NCBI GenBank assembly: GCA_017450325.1
Contig: JAFSVB010000127.1
Span: 1-38,889, forward strand
Reading direction: 5' to 3'
DNA length: 38,889 bases
From: Bacilli bacterium
GTDB taxonomy: Bacteria; Bacillota_I; Bacilli_A; RFN20; CAG-826
The notes under the pieces: generated by a model
What the model saw: only the letters and a program-made list of their open reading frames with translations
Told to the model about the DNA's origin: nothing
Database searches by the model: none
Shown: positions 5,407 to 35,588 of the stretch, piece by piece
Numbering within the stretch: the stretch's first letter is position 1
How the letters are laid out: every line of letters begins with the position of its first letter
Translations under genes and position numbers: made by a program

Positions 5407-5439
5407 AAAAACGCGGAATCCTTACAGATCCGCGTTTTT
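5407..5439. terminator. Bidirectional terminator
   Basis: Perfect 11-base arms AAAAACGCGGA and TCCGCGTTTTT around an 11-base loop. It lies between the convergent permease and GGDEF genes, with T-tracts in both directions, and overlaps the stop codon of the GGDEF gene. Confidence 0.9.
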
Positions 5440-7111: not shown

Positions 7112-7280
7112 AGTCATCGCCTAAGGGCAACGTATTTTAGCATTATTTTGGCTCTCACAAGCGCGTTATGCGCGAATAAGTGTATAAAAATCGAACACCT
7201 TTTTCCGAAAAGCCCGCAAAAACCGTATCTTTTTATAAAACAATCCGATAGAATTCCACCTGCTATATGAGGAGAAAAAC

Positions 7281-7673
7281 ATGCACGTAACACCAGAAGG
7301 AAAGACCATCTTCGACGAAGCGATGGCGCGCACGAACAAAAACGTCGTCCGTATTATCATGAACCGGAGCGATTCTCAGGGGGCTTCTCTTCGCATGGAT
7401 CTCATCGACCAACTCGACGCCCCGCACGTAATGGATGTCGACGGCGTGCTTTTTGACTTAGACGAAGGTGCTGCGGAATACCTCGCCGAGGCGATCTTCG
7501 ACGCAGAAGGGCCGAACCTCAAAGTCATCGCCCGTCCCCATGGGTGCGGCTGCCATCATCATGACCACGGATGCGATTGCTGTGGCGATGATTGCGATTG
7601 CCACCACGAGGATGGCGGCTGTTGCCATGACGGCGATTGGAAAGAGGGCCACCACTGCCATCATAAAGCCTAA
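7281..7673 (+). CDS. HesB/IscA-like small protein with Cys/His-rich metal-binding tail
   Basis: A 130-residue cytosolic protein. Residues 1-85 resemble the HesB/IscA-like fold (MHVTPEGKTIFDEAM at the N-terminus, a DGVLFDLDEGAAEYL strand-helix pair), but the scaffold cysteines of true IscA are not visible there. The last 44 residues contain 10 Cys, 12 His and many Asp, in clusters such as HGCGCHHHDHGCDCC and GHHCHHKA. This would bind soft or borderline metals (Zn, Ni, Cu, Co) and suggests metal storage or delivery. A GAGGAG ribosome site precedes the start. It stands alone between c-di-GMP genes and has its own terminator. HypA at 10.1 kb is a possible nickel-related partner (inference). Confidence 0.75.
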   Translation: MHVTPEGKTIFDEAMARTNKNVVRIIMNRSDSQGASLRMDLIDQLDAPHVMDVDGVLFDLDEGAAEYLAEAIFDAEGPNLKVIARPHGCGCHHHDHGCDCCGDDCDCHHEDGGCCHDGDWKEGHHCHHKA

Positions 7674-7681
7674 ATGAAAAG

Positions 7682-7720
7682 GATCCGAATACGGTGATTA
7701 CCGTCAAGGGATCTTCTTTT
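7682..7720 (+). terminator. Terminator of the HesB-like gene
   Basis: Inner stem ACGGT/ACCGT (7691-7695, 7700-7704) within an outer stem GATCC/GGATC (7682-7686, 7709-7713), followed by a T-rich run TTCTTTTTT. It lies just after the plus-strand stop codon and before the convergent EAL gene. Confidence 0.7.
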
Positions 7721-9931: not shown

Positions 9932-10077
9932 AGCCGTACAATTTGTTTCCTTAATCTTAGACCCCTTCGGCGAGAATGGAAACGTGCAAGCGCATATGCA
10001 TACGTAGGACCCCGCGCGAAGAAATCGGATAAACAAGGAAACTACATGGGCGTATTGCACGTGCCTTATGTCTCATT

Positions 10078-17768: not shown

Positions 17769-19796
17769 TTATTTTATTTTCTTCCGAATTATGAGGATAT
17801 TTTTATCGTCGAGCCTACGGTAGGATAACTCGTCCACAAAAGAACGAACCATATCAATCCCAAGTCCTCCGGGCTCGCTTTCGTCTCGGGGCTTGCGGTA
17901 CGTCAAAGGATTAAAGGGGATGCCTTCGTCCACGAGGATGACGCAATAAGCATCCGCTTCTTTGCGGAGAATGAGACGGCCGGGGCTCTTCATTTGCGAA
18001 TAGAAGACGATGTTCGATACGAGCTCATCGAGAACCACCTGCATCAACGCGAGGTATTCGGGATCAACGCCAAGAAGACACTCGTCGATGAATGCGGCGA
18101 CCTTGCCCACTTCTTCTTTACGCGATTCAAAGGAAATCGTGCGTTCATACCCATAATCCAAGCACACGACGCAGGCATCGTCGCTTTGCTCGGCACCTTT
18201 TACGAATTCATTAACGCGGCACATCAAAATGGGAATCGCCTCTTTGCTTGGCAACTCCGGCACCTCGTTCATGGCGGCTTGGATACGTTGCCTGCCAAAA
18301 AGCTGGCCATCTTTATCCATCGCCTCGGAAACGCCATCGGTATAAAGAATCAGACGGTCGCCCTTGGATAAACGATATTCCTCTTGGACGAACTCGAAAT
18401 CCTCCACATATCCCAGCATGAAGTTCGGGTTCTCGTTCAGCGGGGTATAGACGCCATTATGACATAGGAAAGGCGTCTCGTGGCCGCAGTTCACATAGCG
18501 GAGAATGCCCGTGGATAATTCCAAAGTCGCGATGAAAGCGGTCACGAAGTATTCCTCGGAATTGTTCTCGCAAAGCGTCTTGTTCGCCCTGGCCACATCG
18601 AGCGTGGGCGTGATGGTGCGAAGCACCGCGCATGCCTTTGCCATGAAAAGCGCGGCAGGCACGCCCTTACCGGAAACGTCGCCGATGAAGAAACCGACAT
18701 GGTCCATATCGATTTCGAAATACCCATAAAGGTCCCCGCCTACTTCACGCGCGGGTTTCATGACGCCGTTTAATTCGAAATCCGGACCCGAAAGAGGCTT
18801 CTTAGGCACCATCGATTCCTGCAGTTTCTCGGCGAGCATGAGCTCCGCTTGATAACGCTCCTCCCTCTGCGATGCCTCATGAATGGCCCCAACGTAATCC
18901 TTGATCGCTTCTTGAACGGAATAAAAGGAATTGTTTAAGTCCGAAAGCTCGTCCAAGTATTTCGCTTTCGATGGGCTGAACTCGTCTTTCGCCGCGCCTT
19001 TTTTCATCGAGTCGACATAGCGCGTCGCCGAAAGGGAGATGGCATTAATCGGGCGGATTAAGAGCCTGCCGATCAAGAAATAGGTAATCGCCGAAAGAAG
19101 CGCCAAGGCGGACAAAGCCACGATCGCGTATTGCCACGAGAAGGTGGGCCACATGGAGTAGACAAAGGATTCTTTCGTCTCTTTGATAATCCAATATTCG
19201 TTGGTCACGCTTCCCGTGAGCTTGATGCCGCTGGTGAAAAAGCGTCCATAGCTCGGGTCCTCGATGGTCTGGCCATAGAAGTCCTCACCCATCATGAAAT
19301 CTTTACGACGAAAGAAGAAACCAACATAGGAGGACGTCTTTGGCGTCGTCCCCGTCGCGGAGCCGTAACTCAGGCAAATCGCGACGAAGCGATCCATGGC
19401 CGCATCGACATAATACACGGCAAGGTAATCCGTGGAATTGCCTAAGGTCGCCATGTTGAGCATGGACTCCAACGAGAGGTAAGGCATATCGCCACCCGTG
19501 TTAGAGAAGACGTCGCGGTATTCCATCTCCGCTTGGCTTCCAGGCTCTGGCAAGGTGGCGGGCTTGTTGCTTTCGTAAGCGTCCACCACCGACCCGCAGG
19601 CCATGTCGGCTTGGTCGGCCGAGATGTTGTTCTTTATGTCCACAAGGACCTCGCGGTCGGTGGCAACCGCATCCTGGTAGGCGGTGTTGTTCATCGTGAT
19701 CACGGCCCCGATATAGGCGCCGATTTCGATGAGAAAAACAGCCAGCAGTGTTGGTAATAGAATTTTAAATGTCAGGGATCTGCGGCGATTTTTCAT
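17769..19796 (-). CDS. Membrane sensor PP2C (SpoIIE/RsbU-type) phosphatase fused to an RsbW-like kinase
   Basis: A partner-switching protein of 675 residues. TM1 about 11-34, an extracytoplasmic sensor to about 220, TM2 about 222-244, HAMP about 245-300, PP2C about 315-548, HATPase about 555-672. The metal-binding Asp residues are D355 (EVGGD), D373 (GDVSGKG), D487 (YTDG) and D539/D540. The kinase part shows N-box D590/E591/N595, D623-G625 and GGLG 643-646. It would both dephosphorylate and phosphorylate STAS proteins, an unusual pairing of opposing activities. Its start overlaps the stop of the STAS gene (ATGA), so that protein is the expected substrate. Located at the end of the NRPS-STAS string. 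Confidence 0.9.
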   Translation of the reverse strand: MKNRRRSLTFKILLPTLLAVFLIEIGAYIGAVITMNNTAYQDAVATDREVLVDIKNNISADQADMACGSVVDAYESNKPATLPEPGSQAEMEYRDVFSNTGGDMPYLSLESMLNMATLGNSTDYLAVYYVDAAMDRFVAICLSYGSATGTTPKTSSYVGFFFRRKDFMMGEDFYGQTIEDPSYGRFFTSGIKLTGSVTNEYWIIKETKESFVYSMWPTFSWQYAIVALSALALLSAITYFLIGRLLIRPINAISLSATRYVDSMKKGAAKDEFSPSKAKYLDELSDLNNSFYSVQEAIKDYVGAIHEASQREERYQAELMLAEKLQESMVPKKPLSGPDFELNGVMKPAREVGGDLYGYFEIDMDHVGFFIGDVSGKGVPAALFMAKACAVLRTITPTLDVARANKTLCENNSEEYFVTAFIATLELSTGILRYVNCGHETPFLCHNGVYTPLNENPNFMLGYVEDFEFVQEEYRLSKGDRLILYTDGVSEAMDKDGQLFGRQRIQAAMNEVPELPSKEAIPILMCRVNEFVKGAEQSDDACVVCLDYGYERTISFESRKEEVGKVAAFIDECLLGVDPEYLALMQVVLDELVSNIVFYSQMKSPGRLILRKEADAYCVILVDEGIPFNPLTYRKPRDESEPGGLGIDMVRSFVDELSYRRLDDKNILIIRKKIK

Positions 19797-20086
19797 TCCA
19801 AGGTGATTTGACGCTCAAATCCTGTTACGTGGAAAATCTCGCGGACGACGGCGTTGACGTTACGCACGATGACATGCTCTTTTCCGCCGAGTTTGCGGTT
19901 TTGCGAGAAGAGCAAGCGAAGGCCGGAAGAGGAAATGTATTGGAGCTCGCCGAAATCGAAGACGACGTCGGTGTAGCCTTCCTCTTCTTCAAGCGCGGCG
20001 CCAAGGTCACCCGAGGTGACGGTGTCCAAGCGCCCTTTGAGGGTGATATTGAGGGTCGTGCCCTCTTTCAGTTTCGAAATTTCCAT
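19793..20086 (-). CDS. STAS-domain anti-anti-sigma factor
   Basis: A 97-residue SpoIIAA/RsbV-like protein. The STAS core is ITLKGRLDTVTSGDL, VVFDFGELQYISSSGLRLL and a final helix region AVVREIFHVTGF. The serines at 52-54 in ISSSGL include the site that family kinases phosphorylate and PP2C enzymes reset. A full AGGAGG site lies before the ATG. It is 37 bases after the NRPS stop and overlaps the PP2C-kinase gene by 4 bases, so the three genes are probably one transcript. No anti-sigma or sigma factor gene is in the window; the binding partner may be the kinase domain of the next protein. Confidence 0.92.
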   Translation of the reverse strand: MEISKLKEGTTLNITLKGRLDTVTSGDLGAALEEEEGYTDVVFDFGELQYISSSGLRLLFSQNRKLGGKEHVIVRNVNAVVREIFHVTGFERQITLE

Positions 20087-20123
20087 GAATTATCCTCCTA
20101 AGTTGATTGGGTTATGGAAGCGG

Positions 20124-23100
20124 CTATTCGAAGAAGCCAAGGGTTGATAACGAAGAGATCGACCGCGCGAGGTAATTCGCATCGGTAATCGGCCACTTAT
20201 AGCCAAGACGGTATAGGGCCTTCACGGTGAAGGCATTGTCCGAGAGGATGTATTCTCTCGTAAGCGAATCCGAGGAATTATAGGAGATCAGGCAGCTGAC
20301 ATCCATGTTCCGCGATTCGTCTTTCATGAATTCCGATAACGTCGCGGAGAAGGTCGCGTCGTCCACCATGGCGATGGGATAGCCGAAATCATTCATCGCG
20401 GCGATGACGTCGCCAAGTTCGACCTCGTGGGAGTTCGCGCTGTGGAAGATGGTGTATTCCTTCGGCGTCTCAGCGAGGATCAGGATGGTCTTGGCCACCT
20501 CGTCGATCGGCGAGAAGTCGATGGTTTGGTCCGCCGCCGAGACGGGGAAGACGCCAAGCATCTTATAGGCGCGGATGCTCGCCATGAAATTGTTCGTGCC
20601 CGAGTTGACCTGGAATTCGCCATCGCGCGCCCTGCCCATCAAGTTGCCGACGCGGATGATCTTGCCTTCGAGGCCGCGGCTATTCACCGCGTCGATGATG
20701 GCTTGTTCCGCTTTGATCTTCGAGTTGATGTACTTGTTGTCGATGCTCTGGCCGAAGAAGATCTCGTTCTCGTGGATGCGGCGCTCTTTGGAGAACTTGC
20801 CGTTGACATTCTCACCCGCGACGGAGAGGGTCGATACCTGCACAAGGCGCGCCTTATGGGCAAGGGCGACCTCGATGAGGTTCTTCACGCCGCCGTAATT
20901 CACGCGCTCAATCGCGTCGGAGTTGGAGAAATGCTTCACCATCGCGGCGCAGTTGATAATGGCATCGAACTCGATGTCCTTGAGGTCCTCGAGGAGCTTT
21001 TCGCTGGTGACATCGGACTCCACGACTCGGACGCGCTGGGAAATCTTCTCTTCGAAGACGTCGTCGAAATAGTATTCCAGCAAGCCCTGCAATCGCTCGA
21101 GGCCGTTGATGTCTTTGTTGCCACGGACGAGAGCATAGACCTTCGCCTCGCCATGCTCAAGGAGTTCGTGCAAGACGTGGATGCCGAGGAATCCCGTGGA
21201 CCCCGTCAACAAAATGGAGCGGAATTTGCGGATATTTTTAGAAATATCGTCGACGAATTCCGTGCAGTTATGTTCTAGGCCTTCCGATGCCGCTTCCACT
21301 TCCTTCTCTTCGACTTCGACTTTCTTGGTGGAATTCACCATTGCGGCAAGGTCGATGACGGTCGGGTTATCGAAGACATCGGAATAGGAGATGTTCAAAC
21401 CTTTGCCAAGGGCGAGCATCGTCACCTTGGAGGCGCTTAAGGACGTGCCGCCGAGGTCGAAGAAATCGTCGTCGATGGAAAGCTCATCCACGCCGAGGAC
21501 GTGTTTGAAGATATCGAAGATCGCCTGCTGCGTTTCATTGCGCGGCAAACGGACGCCCCGCTTTTCTTCTTTCTGAACGACGGGGTCGGGCAAGGCTTTC
21601 TTATTCACCTTGCCGTTGTTGGTCATCGGGATGGTCTCGAGGTGCATGAAGACCTTCGGAATCATATAAGGCGTCAAGGTCTTGCCGAGGTGTTCTTTCA
21701 GAGCGCCCACCTCGATGGGTTCCTTGCTCAGATAATATCCGACGAGGAACTGACCCTCTTCCTTGGTTTCTTTGACCACGACGACGGCGCGGTTGAGACC
21801 CGGGAAGGTCTGCATGGCGTTTTCGATCTCGTCGAGCTCGACGCGAAGACCACGCAGCTTCACCTGGTTGTCCTTACGGCCGAAGAATTCGATGCGGCCA
21901 TCGTAATTGATGCGCGCGAGGTCGCCCGAGCGATAAGAATAGACGCCATGGAAATCGATGAATTTCTCTTTGGTGAGGTCATCGCGATGCACATAGCCAC
22001 GGGCGACGCCCTGGCCGCCGATCAGCAGTTCGCCAACCGCGCCAAAGGGGAGCCGACGGCCTTCCGCATCGATGATGAACGTCTTCACGTTGTTGAAGGG
22101 GAAGCCGATGGTAATGCGCGTACCCGTAACGGTATCCATGGTGCAGCTGACGGTCGCTTCCGTCGGGCCGTAGCCGTTATTAATGATGGCTTTCATGCCG
22201 CGCTCATGGGTTTTCTCAAGAATCGTGGCCGGAAGGGATTCCGCGCCGAGGTCGATGACGTTCAGGTTGCGGAAAGCTTCCATGACTTCCTCGATATCGA
22301 GGACGTTGTTCACGTAGCTCGGCGTCGTCGTGAGGATATCGACGCCGTATTTCTTCATCCTCTTGGCCAAGGCGACGGGATTCAGGATCTCGTCTTCGCT
22401 GGCGATCATGACACTTAGGCCGTTCGCAAGCGGGATGAATTCCTCCTGGATGGACAAGTCGAAGCTGAAGGAGGCCAGCGATGCGGCGACGCTTGCCGAT
22501 TCGACGTATTCCCGCGCGACGAGGTTGTGCGGCGTGCAAGAGACGTAGTTGGCGAGGCTATGATGCTCGATCATGACGCCTTTAGGCTTGCCGGTAGAGC
22601 CGGAGGTAAAGATGCAATACGCAAGGGCATCGCCATCGATTTTTACGTGCACGGGCTCCTTGCTTTCATTCGCGAGTATGTCTTCAAGGATCAAGAAAGC
22701 GACGGACCCGTATGTCGGTTTCTTCGCTTCGCAGAGGGCTCTGGTTGTCAAAACATACTTGGCTTCGGAGTCCTCGATGATATAGAGAATGCGCTCATCT
22801 GGGTAGGCGGGGTCGACGGGGACGAAGCATGCGCCGGACTTCATGACGCCTTCGCGGGCGACGTAGCCATTCGCGATGCGCGGAACCATGACGACCACTT
22901 TATCGTCCTTGCCTAAACCGAGCTTCAGCAAGGCGTTCGCGATTTGGTTCGTCCGTTCGTCGAATTGCTTATAGGTAAGTTCTTCGTCAATGCCCATCAC
23001 CGCGAGTTTGTCGGGATGGAGCTCAACCTGCTTCTCAAAGGCCTCAAGGTAAGTCTTCCACAAGATCGGTTCGTCCGTCTGGTTGTAGACATCCATTTCT

Positions 23101-26100
23101 TCCGCGGTGGTCTCGTCGATAAGCGGAACTTCCTTTAGGAGGTTTGCGTGCAGGAATCCCTGCGCGACCGTGTCGAAGAGGCGAGCGAAGTAGCGCGTCG
23201 TCTCCACGCGGAACAGGTTGGATGGATATTCGAAATGGAGGCGGAAGGCTTCCGGACCCTCCAAGCAGTCCACGGAGAAGTCGGCTTTGACCTCGTCGCC
23301 GTTTAGGTGGATGAGCTCGGCCTTCTCTCCTCCGATGGAATCGGGAAGGAAACCATCGCCTTGGTAGGCGAACATCACATCCGCCTTAACGCCGAAGTCA
23401 TGGCTGATTTCCGCGAAGGAGTAGAGGGTCTTTTGCTGGCTATCCTCGAGTTGCTTCGATAAGGCCTTCACGAAGTCGACGACCGATTGGTTCGGATCGA
23501 TCTTCGCATAGGCGGGAAGCGTCTTGACGAGCATGCAGACGCTGCGGGCGATGGCTGCGCTGTCGCGCCCAGAATAAATCGAGGTGAACAAGGCGTCCTC
23601 GTTGCCGTCCCATTTCGCGAGGGCAAAGGCGAATACGGCATTGAAGAATCCATTGAGATTCATGCCGTTTTTCTTCAAGAAAGCCTGCAAATCCCCCTTA
23701 TTTATCTTCAAATCGTAATCGTTCTCCAAAGGCTTTTCTTCTTTGGGGAGCTCATATTCTTTTCGCGGCAAGGCGACGCAGTCGACGCCATCGAGGAAGG
23801 AGGCATAATGGGCCTTCTGCGCTTCTTTCGCTTCTTTCGTCGCTTCCTTGCGCTCTTTCAAGGCAATCGCGAAACCATCCCTCTTCTCAGGGTCGATCTT
23901 CGCGCCGTGATAGGCTTTGTCGATGTCTTCCATCAAGACAGCCAAGGATGTGCCGTCGCTTGCGAGGTGATGGGTATCCAGGAAGAGGAAGTTCCCTTTC
24001 TCCGTCTCGTAAATGCGGGCCTGATAGAAAGGGCCTTTCATCAAGTCATAGGGCGTCAGCTTAAACGGTTCTTCCAGTTTCGGAAGGCGCTCGACGACGA
24101 CTTTGGCATCGAGCCTTGGAGCCATCCGCACATCGCCCGAAGCATCGGTGATGAGGTGTCCCTTGAGATAGGGGTGGGCATTGATCGCCTCGCGGATCGC
24201 GCTTTCTAGGCGAAAGAGGTCCACGCCCTTGCCGAGCTTATAAAGCAAAGGAATGTTATAGATGGTCGATGTCGGGTGGGAGAGGCATTCGACGTAAATG
24301 CCTTCCTGCGTCGCGGTAAGCGGATAATCCTCCAGCGTCTCGGACACTTCTTCTTCCGCATCCCCTGCCAAAGAGCAAAGGGCGCGGATTGTCGGATTCT
24401 CCTTGAGCTTGCCAATGCTAAGGTCAACGCCTAGCGCATCCGAAGCGAGGGTGATGAACTTGATGGAGGAGATGGACGTGAGGCCCGCGTTAAACAAATC
24501 CGCGGTGACGCTGACGTCGTAGCCGAGGACTTTCTTGGCCACGGCGAAGAGCTTCTCTTCTTTTTCTCCCTCAGGAGGAACGACTTCCGCCATCGAGGAT
24601 TGCAAGGTCGGGACGGGCAAGGCGCGTTTGTTGACTTTGCTATTCTGGTTTAAAGGGATGCGCTCGAGTTGCATCATCGCCTCAGGAACCATGTAGGGTG
24701 GCTTGCGCTCGCCGATGAATTTCTTGATGGCCTCGAGGTCGAGTTCGGTATCGCCGACGACATAGCCCGCCAAGAACGAGCCTCCGCTAGGCGCGGGATA
24801 GGCGTTGACGGTCGCGTCCTTGACGCCTGGGAAGTCGCGGATGACGCGCTCCACCTCGCTCATCTCGATGCGGAAGCCGCGGATCTTCACCTGGCCATCC
24901 TTACGGCCGATGAAGTCGACTTTGCCGTCTTTGAGGAAGCGGACGACGTCGCCCGTATAATACATTTTCTGCCACACGCCCCCCTCGAATGGATTTTCGA
25001 TGAAGGCTTTTTTGTTTTCTTCGGGGCGGTTCAAATAGCCGCGGGCAACCTGCGGGCCAGCCGCATAGAGATAGCCAGGGACGCCATAGGGAAGAGGACG
25101 CATCTTCTTGTCGAGGACATAGAGTTTGTTGATGGGGAAGCCCGCGCCGATAGGAACGCGGTGATATAGGCCATCCACGTCAAAGCCCGTGATGCAGATG
25201 GTGCATTCAGTCGGGCCATAGAGGTTGGAGAAACGGAAACGCGGCGGCTGGACTGGGACGAGTTTCTCGCCGCCGACCGCAAGCCACTCCAAGCTCGGGC
25301 AATCGTAGTCTTCCGCGAACTGGCGGCCGACCTGCGTCGTCATGAAGCCATGGGTGATGCCGTTATCGTTCAAATACTGGGCAAGGCGCGCGAGGTCAAG
25401 GCGCATTTCTTCGTCGATGACATACAAAGTCATGCCCGCAGTCGATGAGTTATAGACGTCGAACATCGACGCATCGAAGCCAAAGGAGGCATAAGCGAAG
25501 TATTTCTTACCCGGCTTAAGGTTGAACTCCTTGCGGCTATATTGCATGAAAGCGGAGATATTCCCACGCACGAGCTGCACGCCCTTAGGCTTGCCGGTGG
25601 AACCGGAGGTATAGAGCATGATGAAGAGATCTTCGGGCCGATATTGTGGACGGGGCAACCCTAAGGATGGAAGGGATGGAATCTCGTCGGTGAATAAGAC
25701 GGGGCCATGGTAATCGGTGATGCGGTCGATCAAATCGCGGTCGGCGATGAGCAACTTTGCTGCCGCATCGGTGATCATGAAGTTCAATCGCTCATCGGGG
25801 TAGCTCGGGTCTAGAGGCTGATAGCCGACGCCAGCCATCACGGCGCCGATCATGGAAAGCGGCATGTCGAGTGTGCGCTTGATCAGCAGGGAGACGACGT
25901 CATTTGGCTTTAGGCCATGCTGGATAAGGTAGTCGGCGATCTTACCCGAGATCTCCCCTACTTCTTTATAGGTGACTTTGTTTTCGCCCGCGACGAAGGC
26001 CAAGGTGTCTGGACGCTCATCGATATGGATTTGGATATCGGTCATCAGGTCGCGGTTTAGATCATATCCCGTAAGATCTTTCTCGTTGAACTTAAGAAGG

Positions 26101-27344
26101 AGCTTCGTATCGGTTTCGTCGCAAGGATCAATGTCTTCTATTTTCGATTTTCCCTGCAATTCACAGACGAAATGCTCAAATCTACGCATAAAGGCGCGAA
26201 TCGTATCTTCTTCATAGAGGTCCGCGCGGTATTCCGCTTCCGCGAAATAACGGTTCCCATAACGGAAGAGCTCGATGGCCATTTTTTCCTTGCCATCCTT
26301 GGTCTGAACGACTTCCACGGGCACATCCTTGCCGTCAAGGTTCGCGTGATAGTAATAATCGCCTTGGTAGCTGAAAAGGTTCTCCGCGGATACGCCGAGC
26401 TCCGATACGACGTCGGAATAAGAATAGATGGAGTGGGATATCGTGTCCTTTTGCTGGTGGTCGACGCGCGTTAGGAGCTCCGCTACGGACCCTTCGCTTA
26501 GGTCACGCACGTAGAAGGGAAGTGTCTTTACGAACATGCCGAAGCTCTTTTTCGCCTTTTCGCTGCGGCCGTTATTGACCGTTAAGAAGAAGACCTCGTC
26601 TTGGAAGGTCGCCTGGCTTAAGGTCAACGCATAAGCCGCGAGGAAGAAAGAGGAGCGCCGGACGCCCTGTTTCTTGAGCGTTTTCTGGATATCTTCGTCC
26701 TTAATGGAAGGGAGTTCCACGCGAACGCGGCCATAACGCACCGCGTCTTCTTTCTTGTCTTCGGTCAGCGAAGAATCGACGTCGAGGCTTCCGAACGTGT
26801 CCACGAAATAGGCTTTGTGCTTCGCGAAGGATTTCTCGTCCGCGCGTGCTTTAGCCTTGTCTAAGGCATCGTCGATGCAGTCATAGCTTTCCGCCGGAAC
26901 AGCATCCTTGCCTTCATAGGCGGAGACGAATTCATCGAGATACATCTTCAGGGAGAAGCCATCCATCAGAATGTGATGGAAGTCGCTGAAGAGATAATCC
27001 CCTTCCGGCGTGGAAAGATAACGGATGCGGAAGAGGCGCTGATTCAGCAAGTCAAAATGCTGAACCAGTTCTTCGCGAGTAAGCTCGTTCAACGTTTCTT
27101 TAACGAGTTCAAAAGGCTCATCGACGATCGATTTGCCCACCTCTCCGTCTTTTCCCATGGAAAGGCGCATGTTGAGGTAAGGGTGGTTTTTAAGAATCGC
27201 TGATACGGCCTCTTTTGCCTTAGCGAAGTCTCCGTTTTTCCCAAGAGGAAGAAGCAAGGGCAAATTGTACGCCAAAGTAGGTTCCTGGCAGGAAAGGAAA
27301 ATGCCAAGTTCCTCTGGCGAAATGCGAACAAAGTTTCTGTCCAT
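20124..27344 (-). CDS. Nonribosomal peptide synthetase, C-A-T-C-A-T-reductase
   Basis: A 2,406-residue enzyme predicted to make an N-acylated dipeptide released as an aldehyde. C1 about 1-415 (HHILMDG 123-129), A1 about 420-910 (YTSGSTGKPKG near 578), T1 about 925-995 (Ser957 in GLTSIS, an atypical core), C2 about 1005-1415 (HHLASDG 1125-1131), A2 about 1425-1920, T2 about 1930-2005 (Ser1968 in LGGTSL), thioester reductase about 2040-2400 (TGSTGFLG; YINSK with Tyr2205 and Lys2209). A C domain at the N-terminus suggests an acyl starter. By-eye pocket residues read D-A-F-F-A-G-L-I-C for A1 (hydrophobic) and D-L-Q-T-D-G-G-V-S for A2 (unassigned). A GGAG site lies 9 bases before the ATG. No Sfp-type activating enzyme, thioesterase or exporter is adjacent. 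Placed 90 bases after metQ. Confidence 0.93.
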   Translation of the reverse strand: MDRNFVRISPEELGIFLSCQEPTLAYNLPLLLPLGKNGDFAKAKEAVSAILKNHPYLNMRLSMGKDGEVGKSIVDEPFELVKETLNELTREELVQHFDLLNQRLFRIRYLSTPEGDYLFSDFHHILMDGFSLKMYLDEFVSAYEGKDAVPAESYDCIDDALDKAKARADEKSFAKHKAYFVDTFGSLDVDSSLTEDKKEDAVRYGRVRVELPSIKDEDIQKTLKKQGVRRSSFFLAAYALTLSQATFQDEVFFLTVNNGRSEKAKKSFGMFVKTLPFYVRDLSEGSVAELLTRVDHQQKDTISHSIYSYSDVVSELGVSAENLFSYQGDYYYHANLDGKDVPVEVVQTKDGKEKMAIELFRYGNRYFAEAEYRADLYEEDTIRAFMRRFEHFVCELQGKSKIEDIDPCDETDTKLLLKFNEKDLTGYDLNRDLMTDIQIHIDERPDTLAFVAGENKVTYKEVGEISGKIADYLIQHGLKPNDVVSLLIKRTLDMPLSMIGAVMAGVGYQPLDPSYPDERLNFMITDAAAKLLIADRDLIDRITDYHGPVLFTDEIPSLPSLGLPRPQYRPEDLFIMLYTSGSTGKPKGVQLVRGNISAFMQYSRKEFNLKPGKKYFAYASFGFDASMFDVYNSSTAGMTLYVIDEEMRLDLARLAQYLNDNGITHGFMTTQVGRQFAEDYDCPSLEWLAVGGEKLVPVQPPRFRFSNLYGPTECTICITGFDVDGLYHRVPIGAGFPINKLYVLDKKMRPLPYGVPGYLYAAGPQVARGYLNRPEENKKAFIENPFEGGVWQKMYYTGDVVRFLKDGKVDFIGRKDGQVKIRGFRIEMSEVERVIRDFPGVKDATVNAYPAPSGGSFLAGYVVGDTELDLEAIKKFIGERKPPYMVPEAMMQLERIPLNQNSKVNKRALPVPTLQSSMAEVVPPEGEKEEKLFAVAKKVLGYDVSVTADLFNAGLTSISSIKFITLASDALGVDLSIGKLKENPTIRALCSLAGDAEEEVSETLEDYPLTATQEGIYVECLSHPTSTIYNIPLLYKLGKGVDLFRLESAIREAINAHPYLKGHLITDASGDVRMAPRLDAKVVVERLPKLEEPFKLTPYDLMKGPFYQARIYETEKGNFLFLDTHHLASDGTSLAVLMEDIDKAYHGAKIDPEKRDGFAIALKERKEATKEAKEAQKAHYASFLDGVDCVALPRKEYELPKEEKPLENDYDLKINKGDLQAFLKKNGMNLNGFFNAVFAFALAKWDGNEDALFTSIYSGRDSAAIARSVCMLVKTLPAYAKIDPNQSVVDFVKALSKQLEDSQQKTLYSFAEISHDFGVKADVMFAYQGDGFLPDSIGGEKAELIHLNGDEVKADFSVDCLEGPEAFRLHFEYPSNLFRVETTRYFARLFDTVAQGFLHANLLKEVPLIDETTAEEMDVYNQTDEPILWKTYLEAFEKQVELHPDKLAVMGIDEELTYKQFDERTNQIANALLKLGLGKDDKVVVMVPRIANGYVAREGVMKSGACFVPVDPAYPDERILYIIEDSEAKYVLTTRALCEAKKPTYGSVAFLILEDILANESKEPVHVKIDGDALAYCIFTSGSTGKPKGVMIEHHSLANYVSCTPHNLVAREYVESASVAASLASFSFDLSIQEEFIPLANGLSVMIASEDEILNPVALAKRMKKYGVDILTTTPSYVNNVLDIEEVMEAFRNLNVIDLGAESLPATILEKTHERGMKAIINNGYGPTEATVSCTMDTVTGTRITIGFPFNNVKTFIIDAEGRRLPFGAVGELLIGGQGVARGYVHRDDLTKEKFIDFHGVYSYRSGDLARINYDGRIEFFGRKDNQVKLRGLRVELDEIENAMQTFPGLNRAVVVVKETKEEGQFLVGYYLSKEPIEVGALKEHLGKTLTPYMIPKVFMHLETIPMTNNGKVNKKALPDPVVQKEEKRGVRLPRNETQQAIFDIFKHVLGVDELSIDDDFFDLGGTSLSASKVTMLALGKGLNISYSDVFDNPTVIDLAAMVNSTKKVEVEEKEVEAASEGLEHNCTEFVDDISKNIRKFRSILLTGSTGFLGIHVLHELLEHGEAKVYALVRGNKDINGLERLQGLLEYYFDDVFEEKISQRVRVVESDVTSEKLLEDLKDIEFDAIINCAAMVKHFSNSDAIERVNYGGVKNLIEVALAHKARLVQVSTLSVAGENVNGKFSKERRIHENEIFFGQSIDNKYINSKIKAEQAIIDAVNSRGLEGKIIRVGNLMGRARDGEFQVNSGTNNFMASIRAYKMLGVFPVSAADQTIDFSPIDEVAKTILILAETPKEYTIFHSANSHEVELGDVIAAMNDFGYPIAMVDDATFSATLSEFMKDESRNMDVSCLISYNSSDSLTREYILSDNAFTVKALYRLGYKWPITDANYLARSISSLSTLGFFE

Positions 27345-29976: not shown

Positions 29977-30240
29977 AAAACGCCTCTCCTCGCATATCCA
30001 AGGACGAGACGCGCATTCCCGTGTTACCACCTTGATTCGCCCTCACGTCACCATGAAAGCCTTATGGGGTACGCCAAATAGAGATACCCTCGCGCGATAA
30101 CGGGCGCAACCGGTCTAAACTACATATCGCCTAGACGGCTCCAGGGCCATGTTCGGTCCGCCTTTGCCTATCCCCTTCCAGCCGATGGGGGACTCTCTCT
30201 TAGGCCAGGGTTGGACGTACTCTTCCCTTTCGTTGCCGAT
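29977..30240 (-). promoter_or_regulatory. T-box riboswitch leader, methionine-type
   Basis: On the minus strand, in order: the stem I opening motif GGGAAGAGTACG, the AGAGAG bulge motif, the GGCTGGAA distal loop, a specifier region GAACATGGCCC in which ATG (Met) is in specifier position, and the T-box AAGGTGGTAACACGGGA (30018-30034). The antiterminator tail TCGTCCTT and the terminator follow, with arms AGGACGAGACGCG and CGCCTCTCCT (29981-30013) and a T-rich end. Uncharged tRNA-Met should pair with the specifier and T-box, form the antiterminator and turn on metNIQ, and perhaps the NRPS beyond. Confidence 0.93.
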
Positions 30241-30246
30241 GGCGAA

Positions 30247-30274
30247 ATATTAGACCACCATGAGTCTTTGTCAA
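30247..30274 (-). promoter_or_regulatory. Promoter of the T-box/metNIQ transcript
   Basis: TTGACA (30269-30274, perfect) and TAATAT (30247-30252) with a 16-base spacer on the minus strand. Transcription would begin near 30240, just before the T-box stem I. Confidence 0.85.
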
Positions 30275-30277
30275 CCA

Positions 30278-30310
30278 TTTTGATCAAAAACAAAGGAGGC
30301 ATATGCCTCC
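30278..30310 (-). terminator. Terminator of the alarmone/partner-switch operon
   Basis: GGAGGC-ATAT-GCCTCC (30295-30310) forms a perfect hairpin followed on the minus strand by TTTGTTTTT. It is 8 bases after the PP2C-kinase stop. A second palindrome, TTTTGATCAAAA (30278-30289), follows it and sits just upstream of the met promoter. Confidence 0.88.
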
Positions 30311-30317
30311 CCTGTCT

Positions 30318-32189
30318 TTAGAAGTTGCGTTTTTTAATCAGCGTCAGGACATTGTGCCCGTCGACGTATTCGTATTCGACGGCATCCATGATGTTCTTGA
30401 CCATGTAGATGCCAAGCCCGCCGACCTCGCGTTCATCGCTGTTTGCATTGATCTTTGGATCGGCGCGTTCTAACGGGTTGAAGGGCCTTCCGGAATCGCG
30501 GAAGACGAAACTGATGTGATCTTGGTCGTTCGAGAGGGTGACCTCGACGACGCCATTGTCCTTATAGGCATATTTCGCGACGTTGACGAAGACTTCTTCC
30601 AAAGCGGTGTTGATCATGATGATGTCGCGTTTGGAGAAGTTGAGGATCTCGAGGAGGCTCGAGGAATAGTTGAAGAGGTTGTCGAGCTCAGCGGTATCCG
30701 CGGGGAAGGTCCTCGAGGCGGTGATGATCGCTCCCTTGCGGTACTCGACCATCAAGATGGTGATGTCATCGAATTGCTCGACGCCGCCACCAAAGGCCGT
30801 CAATTCCTCCCTGAGTTCAGGGATGAAGTCCCTCGGGGCGTCAGAGGCGTGGGCTTGGGTGAACTCAAGCAGGCGCTGCTCACCAAAAAGCCCATTGCTG
30901 GTATCGTGGGCTTCCGTGACGCCGTCGGTATAAAGGATGATCTTGTCCCCCTGCTTCAGCTTGATGGAGGTTTCCTTATAACGGGCCATCTCGATACCAC
31001 CAAGGATGACGCCATGGCGAGCCGTGAGGTATTGTGCCTTGCCCTCGGAGATGATGAGCGGGCTATTATGGCCGGCGTTGGAGAAGCGAAGCTCGCCCGT
31101 GACGGTGTCGAGGATACCAAACCAGCAGGTGACGAACATGGAGGCGTCGTTATTCGCGCAAAGGGCGACGTTACTGCGCTCTAGGATGGTCGCGGTATCC
31201 GCGTGCAAGGACGTTGCAAGAGACTTGATGAGCGCTTCGGTCTTCATCATGAACAAGGCGGCGGGAACGCCTTTGCCCGAGACGTCGGCGATGACGAAGG
31301 CAATGTGCGTGTCATCGATGAAGAAATAGTCATAGAAGTCGCCACCGACTTCTTTCGCAGGATCCATGATCGCAAAGACGCCCTCGCGGTCATTATCGGG
31401 GAACTTCGTCGGCAAAACGGAGGCTTGAATGGCTCGGGCGACTTCGAGTTCGCCCTGGATTTTCTGGTTCTGCTTGGCGACGGAAACTTCGTCTTGAAGC
31501 AACTTGAAGGAGCGGCCAGAAAGAGCAAAGCAGATAAAGGAGATGATGGTGAGGGTGGCCGCGCGCGGTAAGTAATAATAGAGGAAGGCGGTCAAATAGC
31601 GATTGTTTCCATTGGCCCGTTGCTCCGCTAAATAGGCGACCCGTTGCTCAAAAGTCACATCGCTTACTTTGAATGTTTCGCCGCCGATGGTTACTTCCCT
31701 AGCGGCATCCATCAAGTTGGCGTCCCATTCGCCATAGAGCATGCCGAGATAAAGGGCGAGGAACATGAGCACGAGCACAATCCCGAAGACGATGGATGTC
31801 GTTCGAGGACGGAAATAATGGTTCGCAAGAATCAAGCAAATCGCCCAGCCAAGCAGCGTGTGCTTTGGCAACAGGATGTTGAGCGCGAACATGACGAGGA
31901 TGTACTGGATAAGCAAGAAGTACTTGAATCCAGGGTAGGCGATGTATTTCGTCCTTTGCCAAATCAACGTCGAAAGCAAGGCGACAATCATGATGGGGAA
32001 CGAGACATAGACGTTGAGCAATACCTTTGGTCCCGCCTTAAATAGCCCTGTCGCATAAGCGATGATCAATATTATTAGCAGGATCGCCGTAGCCAAAGAG
32101 CCTTTGATTAACGCTTTGTTCGCGTCGATTTCATTCTTGCGCAAGATATCCTTGTCGACTTCGACGCGCAGGTCTCTAATAGGTGCCAT
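30318..32189 (-). CDS. Membrane PP2C (SpoIIE-type) phosphatase fused to an RsbW-like kinase
   Basis: A second partner-switching fusion, 623 residues, with a different sensor. About six transmembrane segments in residues 30-225 with one external loop (about 155-200), a short coiled linker (228-255), PP2C about 255-483, HATPase about 490-620. The PP2C metal Asp residues are D284 (EVGGD), D302 (ADVSGKG), D422 (YTDG) and D474/D475. Kinase motifs are E531/E532/N536, D565-G567 and GGLG 590-593. Start set by GGGAGG. It overlaps the preceding gene by one base (TAATG). Expected substrates are the STAS protein at 35.0 kb and perhaps the STAS domain of the upstream fusion. Confidence 0.9.
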   Translation of the reverse strand: MAPIRDLRVEVDKDILRKNEIDANKALIKGSLATAILLIILIIAYATGLFKAGPKVLLNVYVSFPIMIVALLSTLIWQRTKYIAYPGFKYFLLIQYILVMFALNILLPKHTLLGWAICLILANHYFRPRTTSIVFGIVLVLMFLALYLGMLYGEWDANLMDAAREVTIGGETFKVSDVTFEQRVAYLAEQRANGNNRYLTAFLYYYLPRAATLTIISFICFALSGRSFKLLQDEVSVAKQNQKIQGELEVARAIQASVLPTKFPDNDREGVFAIMDPAKEVGGDFYDYFFIDDTHIAFVIADVSGKGVPAALFMMKTEALIKSLATSLHADTATILERSNVALCANNDASMFVTCWFGILDTVTGELRFSNAGHNSPLIISEGKAQYLTARHGVILGGIEMARYKETSIKLKQGDKIILYTDGVTEAHDTSNGLFGEQRLLEFTQAHASDAPRDFIPELREELTAFGGGVEQFDDITILMVEYRKGAIITASRTFPADTAELDNLFNYSSSLLEILNFSKRDIIMINTALEEVFVNVAKYAYKDNGVVEVTLSNDQDHISFVFRDSGRPFNPLERADPKINANSDEREVGGLGIYMVKNIMDAVEYEYVDGHNVLTLIKKRNF

Positions 32190-33880
32190 TATCGTTTCCT
32201 CCCGAGAATCATCTCTTTAATCGCGGAAGCCATCCAGGGTTTCTGTTTGGCCTTGACGGCGAAATGCAATATGGTGAGCCCGCAATAGGGGCGGAGCAAT
32301 TGATCGAGTTCCTCTTCGCTTTGCCCAGGGAAATAGTATTGGATGAACGATTGCCAGAAGGCATAGAGGTTTTCGTTGGTCGTGTGGAAGAGGCGCTCGG
32401 GCGTCTTGTCGCCCGTATGGATACCATGGGTGACGAAATAGAGGGTGCCAATGTCGATGAGCGGGTCGCCATAGCAGAAGTCCCCCATATCGATCCATAA
32501 TGGTTCCCAGCCATTTGCCAAGATGGCGTTTCCAATATGGAAATCGCCGTGGACGCACGTCGTCACGTCGGGGAGGCCGTCGATGAACGCGATGATGCCC
32601 TGCCGCTCTTCTTCCGAAACTTCGGCAAGCTTCATCGCAAAACCGCGATAGAGCGTTTTCGCGTTCGGGAAGACGACGGTGTTGCATGGCGTCTGATGGA
32701 GTTTCTTGGATAATTCGGCAAAGCTCTTGGCGAGCTCTTCGCGCTTCTCGAGGTGGTTCGCATACTCCCTCGCGAATGATACTTTCTGATGAATTCTTTC
32801 AAAAATGATGCCGGTTTTGCCGCCGATTTTTATTAAATCTCCGCAAATTGGGGATGGGACACCCATGCGCAAAGCAACGGTCGCGTAACGCTTTTCGCGT
32901 TCCACTTCCCGTGGATTCATGAATTCGTAATATAGCTTAGCCATGCCATCGCCGTCGCTGGTGTAATAGCTCACGGCCGTATAGCCATCGCCAAACTGCT
33001 CCAGGTCATCCATATCATGGGCGACCGGGGCGCGGACGACGCTTATGGCGGCGCTAACGCCGGTAACATCCAGGGCGCGCGCGACGGATTCGGATGCTTC
33101 GCGAATGACAAAGTCATACCCTAGTTCCTTGAGTTCCAGCAAGGCTCGTAGACCCGCGAAGTTGATCTCTTGCACGTCGACGAAATCGAAAAGATAGGAT
33201 TCGTCTTTGTTCAAGGCCTTCTTAAGCGATGCGAGAGCCTCGCCATCGAGAAAGCCGTGAAGATGCACTTCCCCTTCCTCCACTTGGAAGGTGAACGGCA
33301 CTTTCCTCTTGGGGAACGTCTCATCGATGAGGCGAATGAATTCTTGATAGGCGTCATATTCGGATAGCTCGCTTAATGCCTGAGCCAACGCGCGATAATG
33401 CCATTCGTGTAAAGCGGGGTCTTGAACGTGGAAACGCTGCCAGAGTTCATCGCCAAACTTACGGAAATCCGAACGAATGGCCCTCATATTGGAAAGCTTA
33501 TCGCCAAGGGCGACGATTTTAGAATCATGGGAGCTCTTCGCAAGACGATCGATCGCGGCTTCTTTGCGTGCCTTCCAGGATTGCTCCATCGATAGGGACG
33601 GGACGGGCTCCTCGCTTTCGGACAGGACGAGTTTGGCCACGCGCTCCCCGAATTCAGAAAGAATTTCCTCGTAGGTGACGGCCGTGTCTTCAAGGACATC
33701 GTGCAGGACCGCCGCGGCGATGAGCTCTTGATCCTCCGTCATGGTCGCGACGATTGAAGCGGCCTCCATCGGGTGGAGGATGTAGGGAAGATGATTTCCT
33801 TTTCGGTAAGTACCACTATGGGCTTTTGTGGCAAAGGCGATTGCCTTATCCACGATCAAAGTGTTTGGATTATTCGCCAT
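32189..33880 (-). CDS. HD alarmone-hydrolase / STAS / APH-like kinase fusion
   Basis: A 563-residue three-domain protein. Residues 5-185 are a Mesh1/SpoT-like HD hydrolase with the full residue set: R26, H36, H60-D61, E64-D65, D127, N131 (LHDVLEDT, GDKLSNMR). Residues 195-283 are a STAS domain in which the usual SS(A)G core is INFAG, so it cannot be phosphorylated there. Residues about 300-555 are an aminoglycoside-phosphotransferase-like kinase fold with HGDFHIGN (444-451) and D464 in WIDMGD. HD would hydrolyse (p)ppGpp; the STAS part would dock on the PP2C/kinase partner; the APH part may phosphorylate a small molecule or protein. Start chosen at 33880 because AGGAG lies 6 bases upstream; it overlaps the synthetase gene by 11 bases. 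Confidence 0.85.
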   Translation of the reverse strand: MANNPNTLIVDKAIAFATKAHSGTYRKGNHLPYILHPMEAASIVATMTEDQELIAAAVLHDVLEDTAVTYEEILSEFGERVAKLVLSESEEPVPSLSMEQSWKARKEAAIDRLAKSSHDSKIVALGDKLSNMRAIRSDFRKFGDELWQRFHVQDPALHEWHYRALAQALSELSEYDAYQEFIRLIDETFPKRKVPFTFQVEEGEVHLHGFLDGEALASLKKALNKDESYLFDFVDVQEINFAGLRALLELKELGYDFVIREASESVARALDVTGVSAAISVVRAPVAHDMDDLEQFGDGYTAVSYYTSDGDGMAKLYYEFMNPREVEREKRYATVALRMGVPSPICGDLIKIGGKTGIIFERIHQKVSFAREYANHLEKREELAKSFAELSKKLHQTPCNTVVFPNAKTLYRGFAMKLAEVSEEERQGIIAFIDGLPDVTTCVHGDFHIGNAILANGWEPLWIDMGDFCYGDPLIDIGTLYFVTHGIHTGDKTPERLFHTTNENLYAFWQSFIQYYFPGQSEEELDQLLRPYCGLTILHFAVKAKQKPWMASAIKEMILGRKR

Positions 33881-34973
33881 CGTCGTCTCCTGTATCATTC
33901 TTGGTTAGGCCCATGTGCTGGCCGATTTGGGCCAATCGATGGGCGCGCCTTGCGTTAGATTTCCGTTCCCCAAGGGCAGCGTCGAGCAGCATCTTGACGA
34001 CCGGCTCACCCATGCCCATGGAAAGGACATAGACGACGCATAAGGTCATCGGGGCGGTCGCGGAGGTGATGATATCGACGTCTTTCCCATCGAATTCGCG
34101 GAAAGCAAATCGATACGCCAGATCCGAATATTTCTTGTATAAATCGTCCAAATCCTTAATGGTTTGGAGACCGAGGTTTTTGAAAATCGGCAGGAAATTG
34201 CGCAGGGAAATCTCTTCGATCTCCATGTTGTTGATCGATGCGATGCGCTCATTTAACTTACGGAAGCCGCCGTTTTCAAGATAGGCTTCAAAGGCGTCGA
34301 TGTTCAGTTCGATGGCGGAGAGGTCGCCATCGCGGACCAACTGCTTAACCCGGAAGCGGTATTGGTTGATGGAATCGCGAATCTGGCAGAAGTTCTCATC
34401 CGCTAACTCAAGAAGCCCTGCGAGGCGGTTGAGGCCGCGAAGGTACTCCGCGGGAACTTCGACATCGCTTTTATAGCCGGTGTCGTGGGCGATGTTGGCC
34501 CATGCGTCCTGCAAGGTCGTCCTCAGCTGAATCTCGAATTTGAACTGGTTGATTTCAGGATGCCCTTCATCTTTATAAAGGTGTTCGGGAATCGAGCAAA
34601 TATAATGAAGGGACGTGTATCCGAATTGATCGACGTGCAAGAGCTTTCCTTTGTCGACGGAGTTGTCCCAATCGATATCGAAAGTGCTCTCGACTTTGGC
34701 GGCGAACTTTTCGATGTGGTCGGAGAAAAAGACGACAATGCGCCCGCCGACGATATCGGTAATGCTTTTGATATCCGCGTATTTATCGCCCTTTAACGCA
34801 AGTTTTCCCGCAAGGGATTCGCGCGTCTTTACACGGACGGAGACCTTACTGACAAGAAGGCCAGCTTCCTTCACGAAGGACTGCAGGGTCTCTTTTACAA
34901 ACGTTGCGATCGTTTGATATGCCGGAAGATAGTGATCGTACTGGAGTAGTATGGAATCGCTATGGGCGCTCAT
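33870..34973 (-). CDS. RelA/SpoT-type small alarmone synthetase with C-terminal helical extension
   Basis: Expected to transfer pyrophosphate from ATP to GDP/GTP, making (p)ppGpp. From the start MSAHSDS (367 residues), synthetase motifs are RVKTRES 47-53, DIVGGR 73-78, GYTSLHY 118-124 and EIQLRT 147-152. The following WAxxEH block reads WANIAHDTGYK, with Ala for the usual Glu. There is no HD, TGS or ACT domain; residues about 200-367 are mostly helical and unassigned. The ATG at 34973 has GAGGA 6 bases upstream; the ATG at 34979 is too close to it. The start overlaps the STAS stop and the end overlaps the HD fusion, which may reverse its action. A toxic synthetase (toxSAS) with its hydrolase antitoxin is an alternative reading. 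Confidence 0.88.
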   Translation of the reverse strand: MSAHSDSILLQYDHYLPAYQTIATFVKETLQSFVKEAGLLVSKVSVRVKTRESLAGKLALKGDKYADIKSITDIVGGRIVVFFSDHIEKFAAKVESTFDIDWDNSVDKGKLLHVDQFGYTSLHYICSIPEHLYKDEGHPEINQFKFEIQLRTTLQDAWANIAHDTGYKSDVEVPAEYLRGLNRLAGLLELADENFCQIRDSINQYRFRVKQLVRDGDLSAIELNIDAFEAYLENGGFRKLNERIASINNMEIEEISLRNFLPIFKNLGLQTIKDLDDLYKKYSDLAYRFAFREFDGKDVDIITSATAPMTLCVVYVLSMGMGEPVVKMLLDAALGERKSNARRAHRLAQIGQHMGLTKNDTGDDDGE

Positions 34974-34975
34974 GC

Positions 34976-35278
34976 TCATTCCTCAATATTCAGGAAGCTG
35001 GAGAAACCCGTCATGTCGAGAATTTCCATCACCTCGTCGCAAGGGTATTTGATGACGAAGTTCCCGCCTTTTGCCGCCATGGTCTTATGGAGTAGCAAAA
35101 GGACGCGAAGGCCGGCGCTGGAAATATAGGCGAGGCCTTTCATGTCGAGGGTCAAGCTCGTGATGCCTTCGATTTGATCGAGAATCTGTTTCTCAAGAAC
35201 AGGCGCTGTGTTGGTGTCGAGACGTTCCGAAACGGCGACGTTCAAGGCATTGTCGGATTTAGTAATGGATACTTGCAT
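34976..35278 (-). CDS. STAS-domain anti-anti-sigma factor
   Basis: A 100-residue SpoIIAA/RsbV-like protein, first gene of the alarmone/partner-switch operon. Core elements are AVSERLDTNTAPVLE, LTLDMKGLAYISSAGLRVLL and a final helix EVMEILDMTGF. Serines 53/54 in ISSAGL are the expected phosphorylation site. AAGGAG precedes the ATG. It overlaps the synthetase gene by 4 bases. It resembles the STAS protein at 19.8 kb in motif but is clearly a different sequence, so the two PP2C-kinase fusions likely have separate partners. Confidence 0.93.
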   Translation of the reverse strand: MQVSITKSDNALNVAVSERLDTNTAPVLEKQILDQIEGITSLTLDMKGLAYISSAGLRVLLLLHKTMAAKGGNFVIKYPCDEVMEILDMTGFSSFLNIEE

Positions 35279-35325
35279 GGGATCTCCTTATTACGATTAT
35301 CGAGAAAAGGTTACTACAGAAGTAG

Positions 35326-35344
35326 AAAAAATCATTGATTTTTT
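35326..35344. promoter_or_regulatory. 9-base palindrome upstream of the alarmone operon
   Basis: AAAAAATCA-T-TGATTTTTT, a perfect inverted repeat with a 1-base centre, 48 bases before the STAS start. The centre is too short for an RNA hairpin, so a protein-binding site is more likely. A second short dyad, CTAC-AGAA-GTAG, lies at about 35314-35325. I see no strong -35/-10 pair in the region. Confidence 0.4.
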
Positions 35345-35485
35345 TCCTACGCACGAGCACGGAAAGCGGTTGAAATAAATTCGTTTACTTAAAAAATCCA
35401 CCGCAAAACCCCGTTTATTTTCAAAATAGATCGATATTTAATCACCGCATCATTTATCTCGCGCGTGCGCGTGTACTATAAATAT

Positions 35486-35586
35486 AAAACCGCAAAATCC
35501 CCTCGCCAGCTTCACCCGTGCTTCGCGAAGCGGCTAAGAGGGGTTTAAGCGGTCTAAGAAAAAAGCTGGAAGAACCAGCCTTTTTC
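35486..35586 (+). ncRNA. Candidate structured small RNA
   Basis: TATAAA-like elements near 35478-35488 precede a compact set of complementary segments: CCCCTC (35499-35504) with GAGGGG (35538-35543) enclosing the perfect hairpin GCTTCGCGAAGC (35520-35531), then a terminator hairpin with T-tract (35565-35585). CCAGCTT (35506-35512) can also pair with AAGCTGG (35563-35569), which would break the terminator stem. No protein frame fits. It matches no RNA family I know, and the -35 is poor. Confidence 0.3.
35559..35585. terminator. Terminator of the uracil permease gene
   Basis: GCTGG (35565-35569) pairs with CCAGC (35575-35579), with A6 on one side and T5 on the other, so it works on both strands. 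It lies 3 bases after the permease stop codon on the minus strand. Confidence 0.85.
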
Positions 35587-35588
35587 AA

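Follow-up and report, generated by a model that had tools for sequence, protein, structure and literature searches.

The contig JAFSVB010000127.1 from a Bacilli bacterium (GTDB lineage RFN20, CAG-826; assembly GCA_017450325.1), analysed over positions 1 to 38,889 of its forward strand, a stretch called the window below, carries four overlapping genes that join a predicted alarmone synthetase and a predicted alarmone hydrolase to the STAS, PP2C phosphatase and RsbW-like kinase domains of a partner switch. The linkage of both halves of the alarmone cycle within a partner-switch gene set reaches beyond this strain, recurring in eight genomes from six genera. A partner switch similar to SiaABCD, with the two alarmone-cycle enzymes as its outputs, would be the best explanation of the locus and is given about an even chance of being correct on the evidence of sequence. 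The operon and its boundaries comprise the following features, from upstream to downstream:

35279..35588, minus strand: upstream intergenic region, with a hairpin and then a leader that carries a ribosome-binding site (AAGGAG) ahead of the STAS start
34976..35278, minus strand: discrete STAS protein of the anti-sigma-antagonist type, 100 amino acids, with an SSAGL motif (PF01740, 1e-16; TIGR00377, 4e-19)
33870..34979, minus strand: small alarmone synthetase (SAS), 369 amino acids, with a RelQ/RelP-like catalytic domain (residues ~1-205) and a C-terminal region of ~160 amino acids (PF04607, RelA_SpoT, 4.7e-17)
32189..33898, minus strand: HD.STAS.APH fusion, 569 amino acids, with HD (residues 1-200), degenerate STAS (~205-290) and APH (295-565) parts (HD_4, PF13328, 5.6e-19; APH, PF01636, 8e-12)
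30318..32189, minus strand: transmembrane PP2C-HATPase protein, 623 amino acids, with PP2C/SpoIIE (residues ~241-484) and RsbW-like HATPase (~487-621) domains (SpoIIE, 3.9e-52; HATPase_c_2, 2.6e-21)
29997..30317, minus strand: downstream boundary, with a promoter-like TTGACA (30274) and then a T-box leader (30242-29997), belonging to the next unit

The four open reading frames (ORFs) called on the window run from 35278 to 30318, and adjacent frames overlap by 4, 29 and 1 bp. The HD fusion probably starts at 33880 (Met7), since its homologues begin there; the overlap with the synthetase gene is then 11 bp. The genes look like an operon of their own, because a terminator-like hairpin (35579-35565, read on the minus strand) belonging to the permease gene lies upstream of STAS, and the promoter-like site and the T-box leader (Rfam RF00230, 103 bits; minus strand), which precedes a methionine-type ABC transporter operon (29963-27435), lie downstream. 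Coordinates, overlaps and domain matches were all confirmed for the four genes of the initial annotation, and the catalytic residues that it had read in the sequence are invariant across alignments of relatives for the synthetase (eight) and the HD domain (nine), and conserved in six proteins for PP2C/HATPase.

The synthetase contains all the motifs expected of RelQ/RelP, namely RxK..S..K (R49, K51, S55, K59), D-x-x-G-x-R (D75, G78, R80), GY.S.H (G120, Y121, S123, H125) and E-x-Q-x-R (E149, Q151, R153), and these residues are invariant in the alignment of the eight relatives. Its resemblance to RelQ/RelP is confined to the catalytic domain and its motifs: rather than a single-domain protein of ~200-250 amino acids, it has an additional, conserved C-terminal region and is linked to STAS. 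Asp117 is invariant in the operon synthetases at the position where the KxSGY motif of the RelQ type has lysine; orphan synthetases also vary there. In the HD domain, R32, H42, H66, D67, E70, D71, D133 and N137 are invariant among the nine aligned proteins, and the best solved relatives are stand-alone hydrolases (7qoe, 7qoc, and 4yf1, 1e-23 to 1e-18). The catalytic motifs are those of small alarmone hydrolases (SAHs) of the MESH1 type, but the window's domain is fused to STAS and APH and lies in a partner-switch operon. The APH part of the fusion matches TIGR02172 at 4.8e-55, yet stays under the curated cut-off of that model. The membrane protein has at least four hydrophobic stretches within residues 23-156 (hydropathy); the PP2C motifs DVSGKG, DGVTEA, and DDIT are conserved in six proteins, as are the invariant E532, N536 and GGLGI of the RsbW-like HATPase, and solved relatives include Rv1364c and 6k4e (a "putative serine phosphatase").

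Prevalence figures here and below refer to the sampled genomes, which are mostly draft assemblies. A search with the synthetase among 279 genomes of the order returned eight strong matches, the window included (E-values of 1e-105 or lower, six genera), and one extra weak match (1e-13); the hydrolase search, among 273 genomes of the order, returned the identical eight at 1e-64 or lower and one weaker match (5e-26). Synthetase and hydrolase are neighbours with a STAS gene in the run in all eight genomes, while PP2C-HATPase belongs to the operon in six of them; the contig of G011 stops too early to tell. The gene orders are as follows:

Window: STAS-synthetase-HD.STAS.APH-PP2C.HATPase
G207, G208, G142, and G148: STAS-PP2C.HATPase-synthetase-HD.STAS.APH
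G179: as in G207, but HD stands alone and APH is encoded separately, on the opposite strand
G011: STAS-synthetase-HD.STAS.APH, followed by the contig end
G046: STAS-synthetase-HD alone

The co-occurrence of the four domains in one fixed order, envisaged in the initial annotation, is thus borne out for gene content, whereas the order varies. Flanking genes are not common to different genera, generic ABC ATPases excepted. Reshuffling, fission, and loss around a constant core therefore argue for a functional unit. The ratio of nonsynonymous to synonymous substitution rates (dN/dS) is 0.064-0.078 for the pair G142/G148, 0.088-0.111 for G207/G208, and 0.094-0.165 for the synthetase and STAS of G000/G011, where dS of the fusion is saturated. 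As the motifs are intact and dN/dS is low in the three genome pairs (0.064-0.165), all four genes appear to be kept as functional proteins. A strain-specific gene assembly is excluded by the eight-genome matches for synthetase and hydrolase alike, while chance grouping or misread domains are ruled out by the domain scores, the recurrence in eight genomes, and strong purifying selection.

The domain layout of the switch corresponds to RsbU/RsbW/RsbV, and its PP2C, HATPase and STAS domains and motifs are shared with the switches of SigB and SigF (RsbU-RsbW-RsbV and SpoIIE-SpoIIAB-SpoIIAA). Given that genes may be shared between systems, the HATPase could be a classical anti-sigma factor for a sigma factor encoded elsewhere, with the alarmone genes only co-transcribed neighbours in the operon. 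This is very improbable: the operon itself lacks a sigma factor, the same combination occurs in six genera in varied order, and no sigma factor of SigB/SigF size (~250 amino acids) was found in the draft genome (95.8% complete), where the matches to PF04542 are one sigma70 of 446 amino acids and four ORFs of 100-180 amino acids with sigma region 2. The lack of a sigma factor beside the switch, as first annotated, therefore extends to the SigB/SigF type in the draft genome, and a non-sigma output fits.

The accompanying view that partner switches act on sigma factors was too narrow, as non-sigma outputs are known, including a nucleotide second messenger. In SiaABCD from Pseudomonas aeruginosa, the phosphorylation state of SiaC depends on the PP2C phosphatase SiaA and the kinase SiaB, and SiaC in turn binds the diguanylate cyclase SiaD and activates it (PMC7647112, PMC8457831). 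SiaABCD constitutes the closest analogue of the window's operon, with a membrane PP2C, a kinase, and a STAS-like switch controlling an operon-encoded second-messenger enzyme, and SiaA is the best curated (NCBIfam) match of the window's phosphatase protein (1.5e-20). The two systems differ in the predicted output, which in the window is alarmone synthesis and hydrolysis, with both halves of the cycle encoded, rather than cyclic di-GMP (c-di-GMP); the window also has a phosphatase-kinase fusion, together with an extra degenerate STAS and an APH kinase. A domain search of the four-gene operon found no GGDEF domain, the diguanylate cyclase output of the SiaABCD type. Tuning of an alarmone enzyme by phosphorylation-state-dependent binding is described for Rsd-SpoT from E. 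coli and EIIANtr-SpoT from Caulobacter in the summary given by PMC10704370; as summarised there, these systems differ from the window in employing long RelA/SpoT homologue (RSH) enzymes and HPr or phosphotransferase system (PTS) proteins instead of PP2C-RsbW-STAS.

The SSAGL motif with Ser53 and Ser54 is invariant in the eight discrete STAS proteins, and in the alignment to SpoIIAA the residue immediately preceding GL is alanine. The discrete STAS is predicted to be the phospho-acceptor at the SSAGL serines. The phosphorylation-controlled STAS module of the initial annotation consequently survives for the discrete protein, which keeps SSAGL, but not for the STAS within the fusion, which is devoid of the serine pair. 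This internal STAS scores 0.0036 against Pfam, below the cut-off, and reaches an hhalign probability of 97% versus 0.4-0.6% for three control profiles. The serine pair is lost in all six HD.STAS.APH fusions (NFAGL, DFSGI, DAESV, DVESV, and, twice, SFGAM), whereas over 40 proteins of the discrete STAS or STAS-APH kind carry (S/T)SAGL or SSVGL/SSSGL. With its serine pair lost, the fused STAS is probably not phosphorylated at the usual position and probably serves for docking.

The domains suggest that the membrane protein may sense a cue, with PP2C dephosphorylating and the RsbW-like domain phosphorylating the discrete STAS at the SSAGL serines. Unphosphorylated STAS would leave the kinase domain and, judging from the linkage of the genes, bind the synthetase, probably by its extra C-terminal region; the binding might activate alarmone synthesis or, with lower probability, shut it down. 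The fused STAS, lacking phosphorylatable serines, could act as a fixed dock through which the hydrolase and the APH kinase join the complex, and alarmone making and removal might thereby be set reciprocally at the membrane. The more specific proposal is a response of the stringent type in which a membrane switch sets the alarmone level directly: an external cue would act through STAS, whose phosphorylation state would govern its binding to a dedicated pair of synthetase and hydrolase, with no ribosome or sigma factor in the path. It is advanced tentatively, as somewhat less than an even prospect.

Parts of the module occur separately in other lineages. In the order to which an Oscillibacter-labelled genome belongs, 12 of 295 genomes contain stand-alone HD relatives (E-values of 5e-25 or lower), and in nine of these 12 Oscillospirales genomes the HD gene sits with partner-switch genes. 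STAS-APH adjoins HD in eight of the nine operons; in the ninth (G684), PP2C.HATPase and STAS are present and the contig ends within the HD gene. Five of the nine include PP2C.HATPase, and two (G611 and G639) include a stand-alone RsbW-like kinase. No synthetase was found in the nine operons, and most of these genomes carry long RSH only. A scan of 378 genomes of that phylum yielded one genome, G1150, in which an RsbW-like kinase, STAS, and the synthetase are followed by a hybrid histidine kinase, with no HD gene in the run. The annotation profiles were derived from these loci, so that their E-values are inflated; plain BLAST agreed for the main cases. Since the synthetase occurs without HD in G1150 and HD without the synthetase in the operons of the nine Oscillospirales genomes, each enzyme appears to join the switch independently; within the family of the window itself, they always come as a pair. 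Two proteins within the HD-bearing Oscillospirales switch operons combine a MatE transporter with a C-terminal RsbW-like HATPase (L085:5303-7057 and L090:4375-6144, both on the minus strand); the HATPase is clear in the former and weaker in the latter.

The adjacency of an SAS gene and an SAH gene is also characteristic of the toxic synthetase (toxSAS) FaRel and its antitoxin ATfaRel (PMC11782079). The operon might accordingly be regarded as a toxin-antitoxin-like pair under the switch, in which a toxic SAS would make (p)ppApp or pyrophosphorylate tRNA, HD would neutralise it, and a cue such as phage attack would release the toxin. The patchy distribution (8/279 genomes), the match to the PADLOC candidate PDC-S33 (3.8e-14), and the related synthetases of ~340-360 amino acids that are encoded by prophages, by a filamentous phage and by a phage-like plasmid are in line with this idea. 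The other synthetase relatives either are orphans or come from records of the prophage or plasmid type. It nevertheless seems rather unlikely. The nearest solved structures are the SP1097-type enzyme, RelP (YwaC), and RelQ (YjbM), at 2e-17 to 2e-13, whereas 7ztb and 9erv ("RelA/SpoT family protein") match at 0.002 only. The STAS-linked synthetases, that of G1150 included, group in a single clade (support 1.000), separate from the orphan and phage ones, with the signature HDTGYK after WAS, WAT, WAN or WAQ (WASIxHDTGYK), whereas the orphan and phage proteins mostly show WAEIEHDxGYK or near variants. The genes are retained across six genera with dN/dS of ~0.1. A partner switch is present only here and not in FaRel/ATfaRel, and the occurrence of each enzyme in switch operons without the other is hard to square with a toxin-antitoxin pair. 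It may be inferred that the synthetase would make (p)ppGpp, and not (p)ppApp or pyrophosphorylated tRNA. A viral origin was rejected: profile A1 gave no relative among viral contigs, and no plasmid or phage match spans more than 72% of the protein, with identities of ~37% or below. In the filamentous Vibrio phage PQ189320.1 (8.1 kb), a RelA/SpoT-type gene is present, apparently as cargo (L151:2444-3454, plus strand; 36% identity to the window synthetase).

The initial annotation gave the APH kinase no role, though among related switches that lack an alarmone gene no partner is commoner than STAS-APH. The STAS-APH and PP2C-HATPase module, often with a discrete STAS and without alarmone genes, is found in the window's family and order (L106, L107, L110, L111, L113, L116, and L121), its APH-type kinase being TIGR02172-like, and constitutes the commoner form in the family; in L117 (435-2012, plus strand), HATPase, STAS, and APH are fused in one protein. 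The STAS-APH kinase, acting on a small molecule, could thus be the main output, with the alarmone enzymes as accessories that, for example, would supply or remove a nucleotide modulating the kinase, or with HD using another substrate, such as NADPH. Bacterial SAHs are able to hydrolyse NADPH and several alarmones (PMC9765508), and HD adjoins STAS-APH in Oscillospirales switch operons wherever the contig permits a view. A primary role of the kinase is nonetheless considered improbable: APH is absent in G046 and split off onto the opposite strand in G179, and in both the synthetase and HD still stay together with STAS; moreover, with the phospho-serines missing from the fused STAS, that domain no longer offers the switch its usual point of action.

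Several observations weigh against the SiaABCD-like switch with alarmone outputs. PP2C-HATPase was not found near the STAS-synthetase-HD genes of G046 within the 15 kb fetched, and the sensor is not always local. The phage- and plasmid-borne synthetase relatives fit a toxin origin. Alarmone-free switches of STAS-APH, PP2C-HATPase and STAS are common in the family, and the kinase, not the alarmone, may therefore be the main output. Structure models built from a single sequence and from three sequences reached a mean pLDDT (predicted local distance difference test) of 37 and 42, respectively, too poor for use.

The window encodes a second partner switch, composed of STAS (20086-19793, minus strand) with an SSSGL motif and PP2C-HATPase (19796-17769, minus strand). 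It lies directly downstream of a two-module nonribosomal peptide synthetase (NRPS) of 2406 amino acids (20124-27344, minus strand) with a terminal reductase-like NAD_binding_4 domain. The arrangement at 17769-27344 resembles the NRPS clusters of Methanobrevibacter ruminantium that include genes for a serine phosphatase and an anti-sigma antagonist (PMC2812497), in which switch genes are likewise attached to an enzyme cluster, although the output enzyme is a different one from that of the alarmone operon. Two c-di-GMP enzymes are encoded at 5438-10060 (minus strand): dCache-HAMP-GGDEF (5438-7117) and GGDEF-EAL (7721-10060).

Each of the domains is known already, as is the logic of a switch that controls a second-messenger enzyme. 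No paper joining alarmone (ppGpp) synthesis with STAS or a partner switch was found in a literature search with most subscription papers and preprints outside its coverage, which suggests that, within the searchable literature, neither the use of switch logic on alarmones nor the combination of both enzymes in one such unit has been described. The analysis also names a STAS-APH-linked hydrolase family in Oscillospirales. Inputs to alarmone synthesis include starved ribosomes, transcriptional induction of small synthetases, and some protein partners. If the proposed switch is real, the principle of SiaABCD would extend to a second nucleotide class, and the stringent response would gain a new input, in the form of a membrane receptor tied to a dedicated synthetase-hydrolase pair.

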